Of a stretch of DNA of 64,000 nucleotides, positions 52,967 through 61,266 are shown piece after piece. A program made the translations under genes and the position numbers. Each line of letters begins with the position of its first letter. Positions within the stretch are counted from its first letter, which is position 1. The stretch lies in contig CABZFV010000008.1 in the NCBI GenBank assembly GCA_902525075.1, positions 1 through 64,000 on the forward strand, in the 5' to 3' direction. The notes under the pieces were generated by a model. That model was not told the origin of the DNA. It saw only the letters and a list, made by a program, of their open reading frames with translations, and did not search any database. The DNA is from an uncultured Prochlorococcus sp. GTDB taxonomy: Bacteria; Cyanobacteriota; Cyanobacteriia; PCC-6307; Cyanobiaceae.

Positions 52967-54040
52967 TTACTTAAACCCCTTAGAAAAAAGGTTTGTACGA
53001 ACTTTAAATTTCCATACATTTACAACACCTTTTGCATTGACTGCTGCAAGTGCGCAATCATCAGGTCTCCAGGAAATTGCCCCTACTAAATCTCCTGCGA
53101 ATGCAGCTCCAACGGGATCACCATTGCCGTCATTTTTGAGGAAACTTGCGACAACAGAACCATCCCTAGATCCTGAGGCTACAAGCATACCTTTATTTGA
53201 AAAGGCTAGGCTCGAAATAGGTTCTGTATGGTGACATAGCTCTCCTGGCATAGTCCCTTCTGGACCATTGCCTATAAAGCTCCATACTGTGATTCTTTCA
53301 CTGCCGCTAGTCGCTAATAATTTTCCGCTGTCATCAAAAGAAAGGTGACTTGGTTTTCCAGGGTATCCAGTCATTTCAGCATCCATTCCTGTTGATCTTC
53401 TCCAAAAATGAACTGAATTGTCTTGACTCCCACAGGCGACTATATCTCCATCAGGGCTTAATTCCATAGAGACCAATGATCCTTGCCACTCGAGTTTTTG
53501 ATTCGTTTTATTATTAACAATGTCAAAGAATGTCACTCTGCCGTAGCATGCAGTTGCGAGCTCATTTTTATTTGACCATGTTATTGCACTTACTGTGCTT
53601 GGATGGTCTTCTGAGATCCATTTCTCTTCTCCAATTTCATTAAAAACATATACTTTTTTTGAGGAAGCTATTGCTAGAAATAAACCGTCATTAGACCACT
53701 TGAGGTGTTCTACCCAACCCTTACCAAGATTAAGTTTTTTAATTACTTTACCTTCGTGGCAATTACAAATTTGAACATTTCCATCCTGACCTGATGTTGC
53801 AAAAATCTCACCCTCTGGATGAATTGCCATTGCGAGTAGACCACCAGAGTGAGTATTTTCTTTTTTCCAAATAATTTTTCCAGTTTCTCCTTCGAACGAA
53901 AAAAGACCTCCTGCCACGTCGCCAACAATAAATTGTTTTCCTTTAAGAGCCCAGCCACATGCTATGGCGTAATCGTTAACTTCAGCAGTCCATCCTTCAT
54001 GGAACATGCCTCTTGGGCTAAATGGTTCTATATCAGGCAT
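52967..54040 (-). CDS. WD40 repeat protein in the zinc operon
   Basis: A 357-residue protein of about seven WD40-like blades, for instance HPEGEIFATSGQDGNVQIC, LSPDGDIVACGSQDNSVHFW and FSNKGMLVASGSRDGS. No signal peptide. It starts inside the end of the COG0523 gene (13-base overlap), so it is translated with it. WD40 proteins are scaffolds; here it probably serves the zinc GTPase or a metalloprotein target, which is inference from position. Confidence 0.85.
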   Translation of the reverse strand: MPDIEPFSPRGMFHEGWTAEVNDYAIACGWALKGKQFIVGDVAGGLFSFEGETGKIIWKKENTHSGGLLAMAIHPEGEIFATSGQDGNVQICNCHEGKVIKKLNLGKGWVEHLKWSNDGLFLAIASSKKVYVFNEIGEEKWISEDHPSTVSAITWSNKNELATACYGRVTFFDIVNNKTNQKLEWQGSLVSMELSPDGDIVACGSQDNSVHFWRRSTGMDAEMTGYPGKPSHLSFDDSGKLLATSGSERITVWSFIGNGPEGTMPGELCHHTEPISSLAFSNKGMLVASGSRDGSVVASFLKNDGNGDPVGAAFAGDLVGAISWRPDDCALAAVNAKGVVNVWKFKVRTNLFSKGFK

Positions 54041-55377
54041 TTATCAAAGCCTTCTTGCATCTCTTTCTCATTTAAATTTCTACCGATAAAAACAAGTTGA
54101 TTTCTACGAGGTTCGTTACCCCATTCTTTATCAGGTTGTGCAGTAAATAACATGTGAACTCCCTGGAAAACTATTCTCCTTGGGTTACCTGAGTAACTTA
54201 TAAAACCTTTAGTTCTGAATATATCCACTCCTTTTTCTGATAGAAGTCTTCCCATCCAAGTATTTAGTTTTTCTGGGTCAACATCTCCAAAACGCTCTAT
54301 AGCAATTGAGCCAACTTCATCATCATGTTCGTGCTCTGCTTGCCAGAATCTTTCAGTATTAAATGGAATCTCTTTATTTTCGTCACTTTTAATGACTTTC
54401 ATATTGAATTCTTCAGCGGTGTGCTGTGTAAACAAACCTATTTTTGTTGGTTTTTCTATGTTTAGGATGAAGGATTTATTTCCTTTATCCTCCAATTTGA
54501 GATTCATATGTTCTCCATATGGGATGGTATTTCCAGGATCTAAACTATTAGCTTTTTCTGCATAAAGTCTCACGGAGGATTCAGCACCATCTTTAAGTTC
54601 CTCTTCACTCTCTCCTTGATTAGCAAGGGCTACTAAGGACATTTCTGGATCCGGTCCTTCTTCAAGCATTAATTCATATTTACCTGCATCAAGATCGTAA
54701 ACACCTGTCCACTCAAAAGGATATTCTGGCTCAAGGAATGTTGGCCTGCGTTTAAGGATCTGATCAAGATCAAATGCACTTAGATTTAAGACTGTTTCAA
54801 TTGGTACTTTGGCATTCTCGGCTCTAATAATTCGGGTCATTCGGTTCATATCTCTCAATCTTGATTCAAGAGTATCTAGTGCATCATCAGAGACTAAATC
54901 AGTTTTATTAAGGACAAGAACATCTGCAAATGCCACTTGTTCTGAACTTTCATCACTCCTGCCTAACTGTTGATCAATGTGGGCAGCATCAACTAAAGTC
55001 ACAATTCCATCAAGAGTGAATTCAGAACTAATCTCTTCATCCATGAAAAATGTCTGAGCAACTGGGCCTGGATCTGCTAATCCTGTCGTTTCTACTAAAA
55101 CATAGTCAAACTTATCTCTTCTTTTCATAAGGTTGCCAAGGACTCTTATTAAATCGCCGCGAACAGTACAACAAATGCACCCGTTTGACATCTCAAATAC
55201 TTCTTCATCGGCATTAATTACGAGACCTTGATCTATACCTACTTCACCGTATTCATTCTCAATTACTGCTATTCTTTTCCCATGCTCTTCACTCAATATT
55301 CTATTAAGCAAAGTAGTCTTCCCTGAACCTAAAAATCCAGTGAGAATAGTAACGGGAACTTTATCTTGGATGCTCAT
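54028..55377 (-). CDS. COG0523/CobW-family GTPase (zinc chaperone type) with an insert domain
   Basis: A 449-residue G3E GTPase. Seen are Walker A GFLGSGKTT (14-22), the metal motif C67-I-C69-C70 in NGCICCTVRGDL, ETTGLADPGP and NKTD (157-160). The C-terminal CobW_C part is about 340-449, with an acidic/His stretch AEHEHDDE. Between them, at about 219-328, is an unusual module beginning FEWTGVYDL that resembles one in ZnuA next door. The role is probably metal transfer under zinc limitation. It sits 77 bases after znuA and is likely co-transcribed. Confidence 0.9.
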   Translation of the reverse strand: MSIQDKVPVTILTGFLGSGKTTLLNRILSEEHGKRIAVIENEYGEVGIDQGLVINADEEVFEMSNGCICCTVRGDLIRVLGNLMKRRDKFDYVLVETTGLADPGPVAQTFFMDEEISSEFTLDGIVTLVDAAHIDQQLGRSDESSEQVAFADVLVLNKTDLVSDDALDTLESRLRDMNRMTRIIRAENAKVPIETVLNLSAFDLDQILKRRPTFLEPEYPFEWTGVYDLDAGKYELMLEEGPDPEMSLVALANQGESEEELKDGAESSVRLYAEKANSLDPGNTIPYGEHMNLKLEDKGNKSFILNIEKPTKIGLFTQHTAEEFNMKVIKSDENKEIPFNTERFWQAEHEHDDEVGSIAIERFGDVDPEKLNTWMGRLLSEKGVDIFRTKGFISYSGNPRRIVFQGVHMLFTAQPDKEWGNEPRRNQLVFIGRNLNEKEMQEGFDKCLI

Positions 55378-55454
55378 TTACTGATTTTTACTAAATAAAC
55401 AATAGTTTAATAATAGTAATAATTAGAAATGAAAACCGTTTTTATTAGAAAAAT

Positions 55455-56963
55455 TTAATCTGAAAGTTTGTACCATTCAGACTCAAGATTGGAGCCAGAT
55501 TCTTTATCGCAGCTTCCGCCTAATGAATCAACAATTGTACAAGTGTTGTGTACAGCTACTGAAACAGTATTACCATCCATCATCAATCCATCAACAAATA
55601 TTTGATCAGGAGAAATAGGAATAGAACTTTGTCTGCTTAGATTTCTTAACAGTTTGGAAGCAGGTTTTTGCTCTGGGAAAAGAGCCAAAACATTATCTTC
55701 TTTAAGTTCTTTAAGTACAGATTTTATATTTTCCGGTCTTAAGCTTGAGGAGTCTCCAAGAAAGTCAAGTAAACTAATGGTTTCAAAACCAAAAGCATCA
55801 CCGTAGTATTCCATCGCCTTGTGTTTAGACACAATTATTCTGTTCTCCTCAGGAATGGAGACTACTTGTTCGACGATCCAACTATCCAAGTCTTCCAAGA
55901 TAGAATCAGCCTTTTCAAATCTTTCATTAATTTGCTTTCTTATGCTTCTCTTAGAAGCATCCTTCTTTAAACTTTCGTTTATAACATTTCCCATTTTTAT
56001 GATGTTATGCGGATCATGCCAGACATGAGGATCTAGTCCTCCATGGTCATGATGATGATGCCCCTCTCCTTCATCTGGTACTTGTGCTATCGGCTCTACA
56101 TCACTATTCAATGCGTCTTTAAAAAAGTGCTCATTTGCCTCAAACTCAAAAGGCATGTGTTCAGTAAAAAATGTGTACTGACCATCTTCTTTAATTTCCA
56201 CGTTGAAAACTGTGCTTTCTTTTCGTTGATCAAAGTTAAGCACAAAAGCTTTATTACTTGCTGTAAGAGTCCCATTATTATTTCTCCTTGTTGAGAATCT
56301 AGATCCTAATAGTTCTTTAGCTAAATCTTCCGATCCCTCTATGTCATTAGATTTTAGAATTACCATTTTCATTGCAGGATCTGCATATTCGCCATCAACT
56401 TTTGCGAATGACCATTTGTAGGATCCTTTAGATAATTGGAATTTACCTGCCCATTCGAAAGCTCCTTCAGCGTGGTCATCATGTCCACCATGATCTGAGT
56501 GATCGTCATGACCTCCATGATCAGAGTGGTCATCTACCTTAGCTGAATGTTCAGCGTGATCATCATGTCCCTCATGATCAGAGTGCTCATTTACATTTAT
56601 TGCGCTAACACCTATAACAACTGTTTGTTTTTTGCTTTCCCAATTTCTCATACTTGGAGTCATTTCTTTACCAAGAGTGAATACTTTATCGGCGTTATTA
56701 AGTAATTGAGCTTGTCTTGGATTGATCTTAAAGTCATGAACATCCTGCTTTCTATCTACTAAACATGTAACTTCGTCAGAAGGTAATGCAATTGATTTAA
56801 CTAAATCACAAACTAGTGGTTCTACTGCTACGTATGACTTTCCCTTAGCCAAAACATCCTGCCCAAAACCAGAAAATATTATTGTTCCTGCTATCACTGA
56901 ATTTTTGATAATTGAATTACTTGAACTTGTTTTATTTGTTAAAAGTCTTTCCATAATTGACAT
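55455..56963 (-). CDS. znuA: Zinc ABC transporter substrate-binding protein, histidine-rich, with insert domain
   Basis: A 502-residue protein, far longer than the usual 300. After a signal segment (about 18-36) comes the first ZnuA lobe with H76 (QDVHDFKINPRQ). A His/Asp-rich stretch at 127-164 includes repeated DHSDHGGHDDH. The insert module follows at 168-278, then GHHHHDHG with DPHVWHDP (H313) and H381 in SKHKAMEYYG, so the metal ligands of the ZnuA fold are kept. The periplasmic protein delivers zinc to ZnuBC. Alternative start M4 is possible. Confidence 0.92.
   Translation of the reverse strand: MSIMERLLTNKTSSSNSIIKNSVIAGTIIFSGFGQDVLAKGKSYVAVEPLVCDLVKSIALPSDEVTCLVDRKQDVHDFKINPRQAQLLNNADKVFTLGKEMTPSMRNWESKKQTVVIGVSAINVNEHSDHEGHDDHAEHSAKVDDHSDHGGHDDHSDHGGHDDHAEGAFEWAGKFQLSKGSYKWSFAKVDGEYADPAMKMVILKSNDIEGSEDLAKELLGSRFSTRRNNNGTLTASNKAFVLNFDQRKESTVFNVEIKEDGQYTFFTEHMPFEFEANEHFFKDALNSDVEPIAQVPDEGEGHHHHDHGGLDPHVWHDPHNIIKMGNVINESLKKDASKRSIRKQINERFEKADSILEDLDSWIVEQVVSIPEENRIIVSKHKAMEYYGDAFGFETISLLDFLGDSSSLRPENIKSVLKELKEDNVLALFPEQKPASKLLRNLSRQSSIPISPDQIFVDGLMMDGNTVSVAVHNTCTIVDSLGGSCDKESGSNLESEWYKLSD
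56471..56592 (-). repeat. Tandem repeat encoding the His/Asp-rich loop of ZnuA
   Basis: Imperfect direct repeats of about 15-36 bases, visible on the plus strand as CATGATC(A/T)GAGTG-like units, encode the repeated HSDHGGHDDH segments. Such loops in ZnuA bind several zinc ions and may vary in copy number between strains. Confidence 0.75.
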
Positions 56964-56987: not shown

Positions 56988-57002
56988 TGATAATCATTTT
57001 CA
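56988..57002. promoter_or_regulatory. Putative Zur box between znuA and znuC
   Basis: TGATAATCATTTTCA is a 7-1-7 inverted repeat with one mismatch, close to the Fur/Zur-type consensus TGATAATNATTATCA. It is 25 bases upstream of the znuA start and 97 bases upstream of znuC. It fits repression by the Fur-family gene at 57,884. Only footprinting or motif searches in other strains would confirm it. Confidence 0.65.
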
Positions 57003-57098: not shown

Positions 57099-57869
57099 AT
57101 GGCTACTTTAGTCGCTGAAAATTTAACCTATTCATACACAAAAAAAAGTAAGCCAGTTTTAAGTAAGGTATCGGTTGAGATTAAACCTGGTACTCTAACA
57201 GCGCTAGTTGGTCCAAACGGAGCTGGCAAATCTACTCTTTTAAGAATATTGCAGGGACAATGTATTCCGGATAATGGCCAGATAACAATTGACGGGGAGA
57301 AGTTAATTAGACAAAGATCTCAAGTCTCACTTATGCCACAAAGAAGCTCTATGAATTGGAAATTTCCAATAACTGTAGAAAAACTAGTTTCATTAGGACA
57401 AATAAAATACTCAAAATCAAAAAGTAGTAGTCCTTTTCAAATAAAAGCTCTTCTTGCCAACCCTAATGCATGGATTAATAAATGCTGTGAATTAGAGGCC
57501 ACAATGCAAAGAGTCGGCATTGCAAATATTGCTAACAGAAGGCTTGATTCTTTATCTGGTGGACAACAACAAAGAGCTTTATTAGCCAAAACATTAATGT
57601 CTCCAGCAAAAATTTACCTTCTTGATGAACCTTGTGCAGCTTTAGATCCACCTGCAAAGGAGGATTTTCTAAAAATTGTTCGTCAACTTGCTGATGCTGG
57701 TCTTTCTTTAATGGTAAGCAGTCATGATTGGGGCACTTCGTTAAATAGTTATGATCAAGTTATTGTTTTGGATAAAGCTGTATTGGCCTCTGGAAGCCCT
57801 GATTCTATAAAAGATAAATTAGAGGATATAAATATCAGCTCAATTGAGGATAATAGTTGTTGTGATTAA
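57099..57869 (+). CDS. znuC: Zinc/manganese ABC transporter ATP-binding protein
   Basis: A 256-residue ATPase with Walker A GPNGAGKST (38-46), signature LSGGQQQRA (152-160) and Walker B IYLLDEP. The pairing with a Zur-like regulator and ZnuA favours zinc. The gene ends 14 bases before the 3' end of the convergent Fur-family gene, so the permease znuB is separated from it by that gene. Confidence 0.92.
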   Translation: MATLVAENLTYSYTKKSKPVLSKVSVEIKPGTLTALVGPNGAGKSTLLRILQGQCIPDNGQITIDGEKLIRQRSQVSLMPQRSSMNWKFPITVEKLVSLGQIKYSKSKSSSPFQIKALLANPNAWINKCCELEATMQRVGIANIANRRLDSLSGGQQQRALLAKTLMSPAKIYLLDEPCAALDPPAKEDFLKIVRQLADAGLSLMVSSHDWGTSLNSYDQVIVLDKAVLASGSPDSIKDKLEDINISSIEDNSCCD

Positions 57870-57883
57870 AAAAATATTTAGTT

Positions 57884-58318
57884 TTAACTTTGTGCTTGAT
57901 AGCAGTTCTGGCAAAGTCCAAAATACTCCAGGGTATGAAACAACAATTGGAATTTCTTTGGATTTGTTTTGGGTGTATGAATATCTTTTACAGGGCACCC
58001 TTCCATTTTTGATGTCTCACCACATTGAACACAAGTCAAATGATGAATGTCTCTGTCTACGGGAGTGTAAAGAACCTCTCCTGTTGGGAGATGTCTAGAA
58101 CGTATTAAACCATGCTTTATAAGAACTTGAAGATTCCTGTAAACAGTTGTCAGTCCCATAGCTTTTCCGCTTTCAATCAATTGTCTATGCAACTCTTGAC
58201 CGCTCAGTTCATCGTCACATTTATTAAGTTCTTCAAGAAGTTGTTCTTGTCTTTTGGTAATGTCAGACTTAGTTACCATTGTTTCCGAAATCTTTTTTTG
58301 TCCCGTATTTTTGATCAT
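57884..58318 (-). CDS. zur: Fur-family transcriptional regulator, probable Zur
   Basis: A 144-residue regulator with the winged helix (about 20-85; GKAMGLTTVYRNLQVL) and the dimerisation domain with two zinc cysteine pairs (CVQCGE and CQNC). It probably represses zinc-uptake genes when zinc is bound. The identity as Zur rests on its position between znuC and znuB. The start at 58,318 is 17 bases from the znuB start on the other strand; M14 is an alternative. Confidence 0.85.
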   Translation of the reverse strand: MIKNTGQKKISETMVTKSDITKRQEQLLEELNKCDDELSGQELHRQLIESGKAMGLTTVYRNLQVLIKHGLIRSRHLPTGEVLYTPVDRDIHHLTCVQCGETSKMEGCPVKDIHTPKTNPKKFQLLFHTLEYFGLCQNCYQAQS

Positions 58319-58335
58319 ACCGAATACTTAGATTA

Positions 58336-59121
58336 ATGTCTTTTATTAATAGCAGTTGGTGGCTTGTTCCTTTAATAATAACTATTTTTTCAGGAATTCT
58401 ATGTCCAGCTATGGGAACTGTATTAATAACACATAGGAGATTACTTCAAGTGAATTTAATCTCTCACTGCGTTTTGCCAGGGCTTGCTTTAGCATTGGCG
58501 CTTGGAATTCATCCTTCAATTGGTGGGGTTATCAGTGGTCTTTTAGGTTCTGTAATTGCAGAAAGTTTAACTAATAAAAAGAGTGAAAACTATGAAGCAA
58601 TAATGAACACAATATTAGCCGGAATGCTTGGGTTTGGAGTCCTTATAATCCCTCTACTCGGAATAAGGATTGATTTGGAGGCAGTATTATTTGGCGATTT
58701 ATTGACAGCAAATTTCGGAGATTTACTTAGAACAATAATTGCTTTTTTAGTATTTATACTTTTAATGACTTTTGGATATGAAAAAGTTGTTTATGTTGGA
58801 TTAGATCCAGAAAGTGCATCCGCTAGTGGTATAAACGTTTCTTTATTAAATCTTGCTTTGAGTTTTACAACGGCATTAGTAATTGTTAGTTCAATGTCAG
58901 CAGTGGGAGTAATTCTTGTAATTGCTCTTCTTTCTACGCCAACTTTGTTAGGGCTAAATAAGGCTCATAGTTTAAGAATTGCAATGATGAGGTCTTCATT
59001 TTTTGGATTATGTATCTCACTTCTTGGATTTATTCTCTCTATAGTCTTTAATCTTTCGCCTGGACCAGCAATTAGCGTTATTTGTGTTGCGTCCCTTTTA
59101 ATTCCTAAGCTTCGCAAATAA
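58336..59121 (+). CDS. znuB: Zinc/manganese ABC transporter permease
   Basis: A 261-residue ABC-3 family permease with about eight helices. The GLDPESASASGIN segment and the loop after it are typical of the family. It lies on the far side of the Fur-family gene, apart from znuC. The start codon lies in the promoter region of the regulator. Confidence 0.9.
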   Translation: MSFINSSWWLVPLIITIFSGILCPAMGTVLITHRRLLQVNLISHCVLPGLALALALGIHPSIGGVISGLLGSVIAESLTNKKSENYEAIMNTILAGMLGFGVLIIPLLGIRIDLEAVLFGDLLTANFGDLLRTIIAFLVFILLMTFGYEKVVYVGLDPESASASGINVSLLNLALSFTTALVIVSSMSAVGVILVIALLSTPTLLGLNKAHSLRIAMMRSSFFGLCISLLGFILSIVFNLSPGPAISVICVASLLIPKLRK

Positions 59122-60925: not shown

Positions 60926-60937
60926 TGATAATTATCA
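60926..60937. promoter_or_regulatory. Perfect palindrome, candidate Zur/Fur box
   Basis: TGATAATTATCA is a perfect palindrome, 45 bases upstream of the next start codon. A further half site TGATAAT follows at about 60,945. Identical halves occur in the candidate Zur box at 56,988. It could place the following membrane protein under zinc or iron control. Confidence 0.5.
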
Positions 60938-60981
60938 TCATGCCTTGATAATGGCAAATTTATTATATTTTCTCTGAAAAG

Positions 60982-61266
60982 ATGATCATAAATTTTATAT
61001 ATTTATTGTTATCTAGTTTTGTTTTTTTCTGTTTTTATATAAATATTAAAAAAAATGGAGTTAAATGGATAATCAAAGGTCTTTTGCAAATTGGAATATT
61101 GGTATTATTCATTGGAGGGTTTTTCAAAATATTTTTCACCTTACCCCCTAATTTATTTATAAAAATATTTTTTCTTATTATTTATACATGGTGCACTGTT
61201 GGAATAAATGTAAATTTCATGATCCCTTTGATTAGTTTGATTGACCAAAAAATAGTAAATAAATAA
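60982..61266 (+). CDS. Small membrane protein, possibly metal-regulated
   Basis: A 94-residue protein with three hydrophobic helices and a basic loop between the first two (NIKKNGVKW). No transporter signature is recognised. The palindrome upstream is the only clue to its role. Confidence 0.6.
   Translation: MIINFIYLLLSSFVFFCFYINIKKNGVKWIIKGLLQIGILVLFIGGFFKIFFTLPPNLFIKIFFLIIYTWCTVGINVNFMIPLISLIDQKIVNK

Follow-up and report, generated by a model that had tools for sequence, protein, structure and literature searches.

A Homologous Inserted Module Shared by a COG0523 GTPase and a ZnuA-type Binding Protein at a Prochlorococcus Zinc Locus

Can one inserted domain be common to a cytoplasmic GTPase and an extracytoplasmic metal-binding protein, and what would it do in both? 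The question is raised by a 64-kb stretch of DNA from an uncultured Prochlorococcus sp. (the window, meaning the whole of the stretch analyzed; its home genome, G000, comprises 1.4 Mb in 34 contigs), on the minus strand of which lie, in order of transcription, genes for a ZnuA-type substrate-binding protein, a COG0523 (CobW/G3E) GTPase and a WD40-repeat protein. A preliminary description of this DNA had proposed that the first two of these proteins hold the same module. Both open reading frames are present on the minus strand where that description had placed them, and the motifs that it named could be located in each, with FEW at residue 221 of the GTPase and 169 of ZnuA, DPxM at 243 and 195, FT(Q/E)H at 316 and 266, and EF at 323 and 273, respectively. 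We find that the two inserts, of about 110 residues, are homologous.

When the full-length GTPase and ZnuA were compared by BLASTP, the module region gave the only significant match (28% identity over 114 columns, E 2e-4), the next having an E value of 0.72. The local alignment score of 73 compares with a mean of 28.6 (standard deviation 5.0) for shuffled sequences, and none of 5000 shuffles scored as high (maximum 65). A profile of GTPase modules only, which includes the window GTPase copy itself so that only its matches to the other kind of carrier count, detected the window ZnuA copy with an E value of 8.5e-16. In the opposite direction, a profile of 16 binding-protein modules from haloarchaea and one Desulfobacteraceae genome detected the window GTPase copy with an E value of 4.4e-20, and reversed decoys gave no hit up to E 10 in these cross-kind searches. 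Alignment of a GTPase-only (10 rows) with a ZnuA-type-only (7 rows) alignment by hhalign gave an E value of 1.2e-24 at a probability of 99.6. The preliminary description had staked its claim on a significant alignment, which the pairwise, shuffled and profile-profile comparisons all provide.

The predicted structures agree with this. An AlphaFold model of the GTPase module alone (window 54379-54735, from an alignment that included copies of all kinds) is a β-sandwich with one helix and has a predicted local distance difference test (pLDDT) score of 94.7 and a predicted template modeling score of 0.87. Its elements are strands at residues 9-15, 18-24 and 32-38, a helix at 44-58, and strands at 63-65, 76-79, 87-93, 97-103 and 113-115. 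For full-length ZnuA the model, built on 12 binding proteins, has a low pLDDT (67.7), and its module shows the same order of elements, with strands at 171-177, 180-187 and 199-204, a helix at 208-220, and strands at 225-227, 232-234, 239-241, 250-257 and 261-267. Differing folds would have spoken against a shared module; the common strand and helix order, although of low confidence on the ZnuA side, leaves the proposal standing, and together with the sequence homology it bears out that a cytoplasmic and a secreted protein hold homologous copies of one domain. A pairwise identity of no more than 28% would fit short motifs that have converged or are alike by chance, but given the cross-kind profile and profile-profile E values, the lack of decoys and the matching order of predicted elements, we regard this reading as scarcely conceivable.

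The points of insertion can be read from members of both families of solved structure. Escherichia coli YjiA (1nij) aligns to residues 6-214 and 351-444 of the window GTPase, with 5 YjiA residues opposite 136 in the GTPase, and this alignment and the Pfam bounds place the module between the G domain and CobW_C, as had been described. In eight module-less GTPase relatives, chosen from the best 20 of 2097 matching records, a histidine motif of the HEH type follows the end of the G domain almost directly, and the window module sits between the two. A solved manganese-binding protein (4utp) aligns to residues 41-110 and 304-465 of the window ZnuA, with 28 residues opposite 193 that make up the histidine loop and the module. 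The earlier wording that the ZnuA copy follows the His-rich loop therefore needs amendment, as a His-rich segment (residues 127-164) does precede the module, but the module lies inside the loop, which is His-rich again at 302-307. Likewise, the statement that neither standard family has the module is correct for the solved members 1nij and 4utp and not for COG0523 as a whole, in which a large clade of GTPases carries it.

Across sampled genomes the occurrence of the module is sporadic. With the genome at the center of each sample counted, a ZnuA-module profile (E 0.01) had matches in 21 of 40 genomes of the relatives sample and in 23 of 292 genomes, from 10 of 115 genera, of the phylum sample; in other phylum samples it matched 8/299 genomes (around an Alicyclobacillus genome), 2/299 (a Steroidobacteraceae genome), 12/199 (a Solibacter genome) and 1/247 (a Desulfobacteraceae genome, the center alone). 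A profile search of G000 returned only the two window copies. Outside the window, G000 holds two further COG0523-like matches and one weak partial match (C30:3405-4007, C13:15452-15853 and C14:44-247, respectively).

More carriers had been called for, and a DNA pattern scan of genome contigs yielded at least 117 loci with several kinds of metal-handling protein in bacteria and archaea. The pattern, which required Glu8, Trp9, Gly11, Leu15, Gly18, Asp29, Pro30 and Met32 (module numbering), was chosen to skip the common picocyanobacterial copies, and its counts are not frequencies. A profile confirmed the module in all 117 listed loci, some of whose frames are cut or split. GTPases were the only carriers at 98 of them, binding proteins at 14 and other proteins at 4, and one locus, L171 from a Verrucomicrobia genome, has both a GTPase and a binding-protein carrier. 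By record titles the loci fall in at least 16 named phyla, 2 of them archaeal, with three loci lacking a phylum; the sole Nitrososphaerota locus among the matches listed is from a 0.7-Mb metagenome bin and may be misbinned. Haloarchaeal copies are found on complete plasmids as well.

The carriers are of five sorts. Besides COG0523 GTPases and ZnuA-type binding proteins there is a cation diffusion facilitator (CDF) exporter of Paenibacillus (L092; Cation_efflux E 1.4e-38) with the module at its C terminus, which in CDF proteins is cytoplasmic. In Alicyclobacillus (L032 and L129) the carrier, a membrane protein in which the module lies beside a His-rich loop, was read as HupE/NiCoT-like, the L129 protein having no Pfam match at E 1e-6. 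Lastly, haloarchaea have free-standing copies with His-rich ends behind a cysteine that resembles a lipoprotein site, and similar lipoprotein-like copies occur in genomes of the Alicyclobacillus phylum sample. One of the haloarchaeal copies, in Natrinema versiforme (L039:5887-6438), adjoins a urease operon, a hint of nickel, and a partial module reading frame (L206:799-1800) lies between an ABC ATPase gene and the gene for the cobalt uptake component CbiM, directly 5′ of the latter, a hint of cobalt or nickel. Two modules can also stand in tandem within one His-rich loop, as in a 623-residue ZnuA from a relative of the window genome (L019, genome G023), where they have diverged, and in a 615-residue ZnuA frame (L065, genome G197). 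We rejected an 873-residue two-module ZnuA frame (L055, genome G255) that looks like an assembly artifact, with the same sequence repeated around a run of unknown residues. In one GTPase (L133:7150-7998) a His-rich stretch lies inside the module itself.

Which residues are kept was assessed in two alignments. The first, of 15 rows, was built before the pattern scan, and in it Glu8, Trp9, Gly11, Leu15, Gly18, Asp29, His105, Glu109 and Phe110 are invariant. The second has 94 rows, comprising 92 of the 111 usable module stretches from the at least 117 listed loci and the two window copies, and here His105 and Glu109, neither of them demanded by the scan pattern, are kept in 94 of 94. The Glu, Asp, His and Glu that are invariant in both alignments correspond to Glu-222, Asp-243, His-319 and Glu-323 of the window GTPase and to Glu-170, Asp-195, His-269 and Glu-273 of ZnuA. 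The order of strands in the model suggests that Glu8, Asp29, His105 and Glu109 share one edge of the sandwich.

The preliminary description gave no name for the module, and we found none, as nothing matched in Pfam, NCBIfam or the PDB sequences covers it in either window protein, with the module profile or among the 94 modules. A PDB sequence search with the profile returned one chance match (E 1.1), and Pfam gave only scattered weak matches for the 94 modules. ZinT, of which Pfam presumably holds a model, had no match up to E 1 in either window protein and was absent from the 25 of 27 Pfam families shown for the 94 modules. In a Foldseek search with the module model, no PDB entry matched at or below E 0.001. 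VIA ranks the GOLD domains of SEC14L and p24 proteins highest (Z 6.1 to 5.6), tied with an ephrin receptor domain at 5.5, and itself rates this range as common. For 4tlg, the C-terminal part of a SEC14L protein that we take to be a GOLD domain, Z is 6.1 with a root mean square deviation of 3.3 over 87 aligned residues, and for a p24 protein Z is 5.6; identity is only 4-9%, however, and such Z values may reflect no more than a common arrangement. The predicted fold is thus a GOLD-like or jelly-roll-looking β-sandwich without an established relative. No description of the module was found in a literature search that covered few subscription papers, nor in the available parts of PMC2770081, PMC6689063, PMC9337993 and PMC10957091. 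The module is unnamed in the libraries searched, and we found no account, there or in the papers, of its occurrence in two compartments and in five kinds of carrier.

How did neighboring genes come to hold the same insert? Their adjacency would suit a recent copying from one to the other within the picocyanobacterial lineage. In a module tree of 67 chosen rows and 118 columns, whose inner forks are weak, a supported split (98/92) separates 22 extracytoplasmic copies (17 from binding proteins and 5 lipoprotein-like) from 45 others (42 from GTPases and 3 from membrane proteins). Joining the 12 picocyanobacterial copies of both kinds costs 58.9 log-likelihood units and is rejected (approximately unbiased (AU) test, p 0.0018). 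In the tree, the picocyanobacterial ZnuA copies are joined first by a Verrucomicrobia copy (96/87) and next by copies from two genomes of the Alicyclobacillus phylum sample (98/93). Both results make recent copying very improbable. Rather, as judged from the module sequences, the two window copies belong to two old lineages, a point not foreseen in the preliminary description. Rows of both lineages are among those that keep the invariant Glu, Asp, His and Glu. A single clade of binding-protein modules was not rejected (AU p 0.25). We also built a tree of the G domains of 34 of 141 carriers and the 8 module-less relatives, after the removal of five long-branched module-less rows. Here 33 of the 34 carriers form one clade (98/93) inside a larger group with the 8 module-less relatives, and insertion into the GTPase may therefore have happened once; the remaining carrier (L142) falls outside without good support, and a single origin for all 34 was not rejected (AU p 0.093).

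The best explanation of these observations is that the module is a mobile accessory domain set next to flexible His-rich segments or motifs in proteins that transport or deliver transition metals. We think it on balance probable that this small β-sandwich is itself an accessory metal-binding unit, in which the four conserved residues would form one metal site, the metal being presumably zinc for the most part and perhaps cobalt or nickel in places. An accessory metal site beside a histidine collector is the simplest reading because the carriers are mostly metal movers, most non-GTPase copies have His-rich flanks, and the acidic/histidine set is invariant. In flanks of 40 residues on each side, counted over copies not thinned for kinship, binding-protein copies (n = 52) have on average 8.2 histidines before and 7.6 after the module, and other non-GTPase copies (n = 8) have 5.1 and 5.8, as against 2.67 per 80 residues in other open reading frames; at least four histidines in the two flanks together are found in 49 of 52 and 8 of 8 copies, respectively. 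In such a scheme the His-rich segments would catch metal loosely, the module would offer a structured site of the invariant Glu, Asp, His and Glu that holds it better than the loop alone, and the metal would then be handed to the site of the carrier itself, which we take to be the three-His site in ZnuA and the Cys-x-Cys-Cys site in the GTPase. Both are present in the window proteins, in ZnuA as His-76, His-313 and His-381, presumably the metal ligands and invariant in 12 of 12 rows of an alignment, and in the GTPase as GCICC at residues 66-70 (Cys-67, Cys-69 and Cys-70). More tentatively, we suggest an old metal-relay domain of bacteria and archaea stationed at both ends of the metal path, in the catcher outside (ZnuA and lipoproteins) and the deliverer inside (the COG0523 GTPase), with two lineages that keep one Glu/Asp/His site.

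Several observations weigh against a metal-binding role. GTPase copies, the commonest kind, have mean counts of only 0.4 histidines before and 2.4 after the module, just 29 of 124 have at least four in both flanks together, and the histidine motif that follows the module occurs without the module too. Neither the Glu-Trp pair nor the second Glu is kept in the distant relative L205 (E 1.4e-6). Carbohydrates, lipids and proteins are frequent ligands of such folds, and rows of these types fill the VIA list. With regard to gene context, 56 of the 99 listed GTPase loci lack znu-type and FUR-type genes as well as another CobW gene within the stretch covered, and a clear nickel or cobalt neighbor is present for 2 of 7 free-standing copies (L038, L039, L040, L202, L203, L205 and L206).

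The main rival explanation is that the module is a docking domain for another protein, such as the WD40 protein inside the cell or a part of the transporter outside, and that the conserved residues maintain the fold or the contact face. Among the module-bearing GTPases in the listed scan loci, 56 of 76 have a WD40 gene as their direct downstream neighbor, compared with 5 of 562 other open reading frames, and the best rows of the fold comparison are GOLD-type domains, which are mostly interaction domains. None of the 26 module-less COG0523 genes in those loci is followed by WD40, a control that comprises other subfamilies. However, 4 of the 8 module-less relatives (L212, L213, L215 and L218) also adjoin a WD40 gene, and we reject a tie between the pairing and the module; the association does not make WD40 the partner of the module. 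Moreover, no partner suggests itself that carriers in two compartments would have in common, and an invariant Glu, Asp, His and Glu would, in our judgment, be unusual in a docking face. We consider docking rather improbable. At one locus, on a Pantoea soli plasmid (L035:7001-8376), the GTPase and WD40 genes survive as short frames only and are probably decayed.

The WD40 pairing is already known and belongs to the GTPase subfamily, a conclusion that follows from the four module-less relatives and from the link drawn by Haas et al. (2009; PMC2770081), the available part of which reports that genes of COG0523 subfamily 5 cluster with WD40 and znuABC genes and that several have putative Zur sites. 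The window GTPase likewise has this neighborhood of WD40 and znuABC, and is likened to subfamily 5 by that and not by its position in a tree. It differs in that the part of PMC2770081 at hand speaks of histidine stretches and of no inserted domain, and in that WD40-adjoining relatives without the module exist.

A third explanation would have the module sense the metal load and gate its carrier, that is, GTP hydrolysis in the GTPase and metal release in ZnuA, without supplying metal. Its location between the G domain and CobW_C and between the His-bearing parts of ZnuA is suited to such a role, but the free-standing lipoprotein-like copies have nothing to gate in the same chain, and we hold gating to be distinctly unlikely. 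A role in zinc handling, as originally put forward, agrees with a metal-binding module insofar as the carriers are mostly metal proteins, but zinc is not the only metal implicated, given the copies beside the urease operon (L039) and CbiM (L206). The suggestion that carriers might always be Zur-regulated or near zinc genes did not hold, as a znu-type or FUR-type gene is present at only 31 of the 99 listed GTPase loci (mean stretch 7.2 kb).

The window itself is a zinc locus in this sense (Table 1), in which znuA is flanked on its other side by genes for a ZnuC-type ATPase, a FUR-family protein (minus strand) and a ZnuB-type permease. Zur-box-like sites with up to three mismatches to TGATAATNATTATCA, which we take to be the Zur-box consensus, number 17 in the window compared with 17.5 expected by chance. 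As the count equals chance, what speaks for the site between znuA and znuC is its place and its single mismatch. A second site with one mismatch (60926-60940) lies 41 bases 5′ of an open reading frame for a 94-residue membrane protein (60982-61266).

Table 1. Features of the window around the two module-bearing genes
Feature	Position	Strand	Details
COG0523 (CobW/G3E) GTPase, carrier of the cytoplasmic copy	54028-55377	-	449 residues; Pfam cobW E 2.4e-61 (residues 8-184), CobW_C E 1.8e-24 (356-448)
Inserted module, cytoplasmic copy	54391-54726	-	GTPase residues about 218-329
Histidine motif HEH, 3′ of module	54325-54333	-	GTPase residues 349-351; from alignment with the 8 module-less relatives
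ZnuA-type (cluster A-I) substrate-binding protein, carrier of the extracytoplasmic copy	55455-56963	-	502 residues; Pfam ZnuA (PF01297) E 1.5e-42
Inserted module, extracytoplasmic copy	56112-56468	-	ZnuA residues about 166-284
His-rich segment preceding module	56472-56585	-	ZnuA residues 127-164
His-rich segment 3′ of module	56043-56060	-	ZnuA residues 302-307; just ahead of DPHVW motif
WD40-repeat protein	52967-54040	-	Pfam WD40 E 1.8e-26; 13-base overlap with the GTPase end
ABC ATPase, ZnuC by position	57099-57869	+	Pfam ABC_tran E 1.1e-30
FUR-family regulator, probably Zur (by position)	57884-58318	-	Pfam FUR E 2.7e-19
ABC-3 permease, ZnuB by position	58336-59121	+	Pfam ABC-3 E 1.6e-42
Zur-box-like site TGATAATCATTTTCA	56988-57002	+	1 mismatch to TGATAATNATTATCA; between divergent znuA and znuC

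Zinc-binding proteins with accessory domains are already a known kind. The window ZnuA resembles cluster A-I proteins in its PF01297 match, three conserved histidines and His-rich loop, and differs from them in holding a domain of about 120 residues in that loop. AdcA, chains of which are among the PDB matches of the window ZnuA, is a ZnuA-like protein fused to a C-terminal ZinT domain and is similar in being a zinc-binding protein with an extra domain, whereas the window proteins have no ZinT match. By its description in the available part of PMC6689063, AztD is a periplasmic zinc chaperone that, like the module, is accessory to an A-I zinc-binding protein, but it is a β-propeller. ZepA, likened here by its description in the accessible text of PMC10957091, is an extracellular zinc-handling cyanobacterial protein with a β-sandwich domain, and no mention of such a module was found in that text.

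The precise function of COG0523 proteins, which have been proposed to be metal chaperones, is called enigmatic in the part of PMC6689063 available. A module common to such a chaperone, importer binding proteins, an exporter and lipoproteins provides a small unit that is open to test. Metal binding would make it a common element of metal transfer, and partner binding would point to the partner concerned. Were the metal-binding reading true, hypothetical lipoproteins of archaea and bacteria would be marked as likely metal proteins. Marine picocyanobacteria live where zinc is very scarce, and the module adds a part to their zinc uptake.

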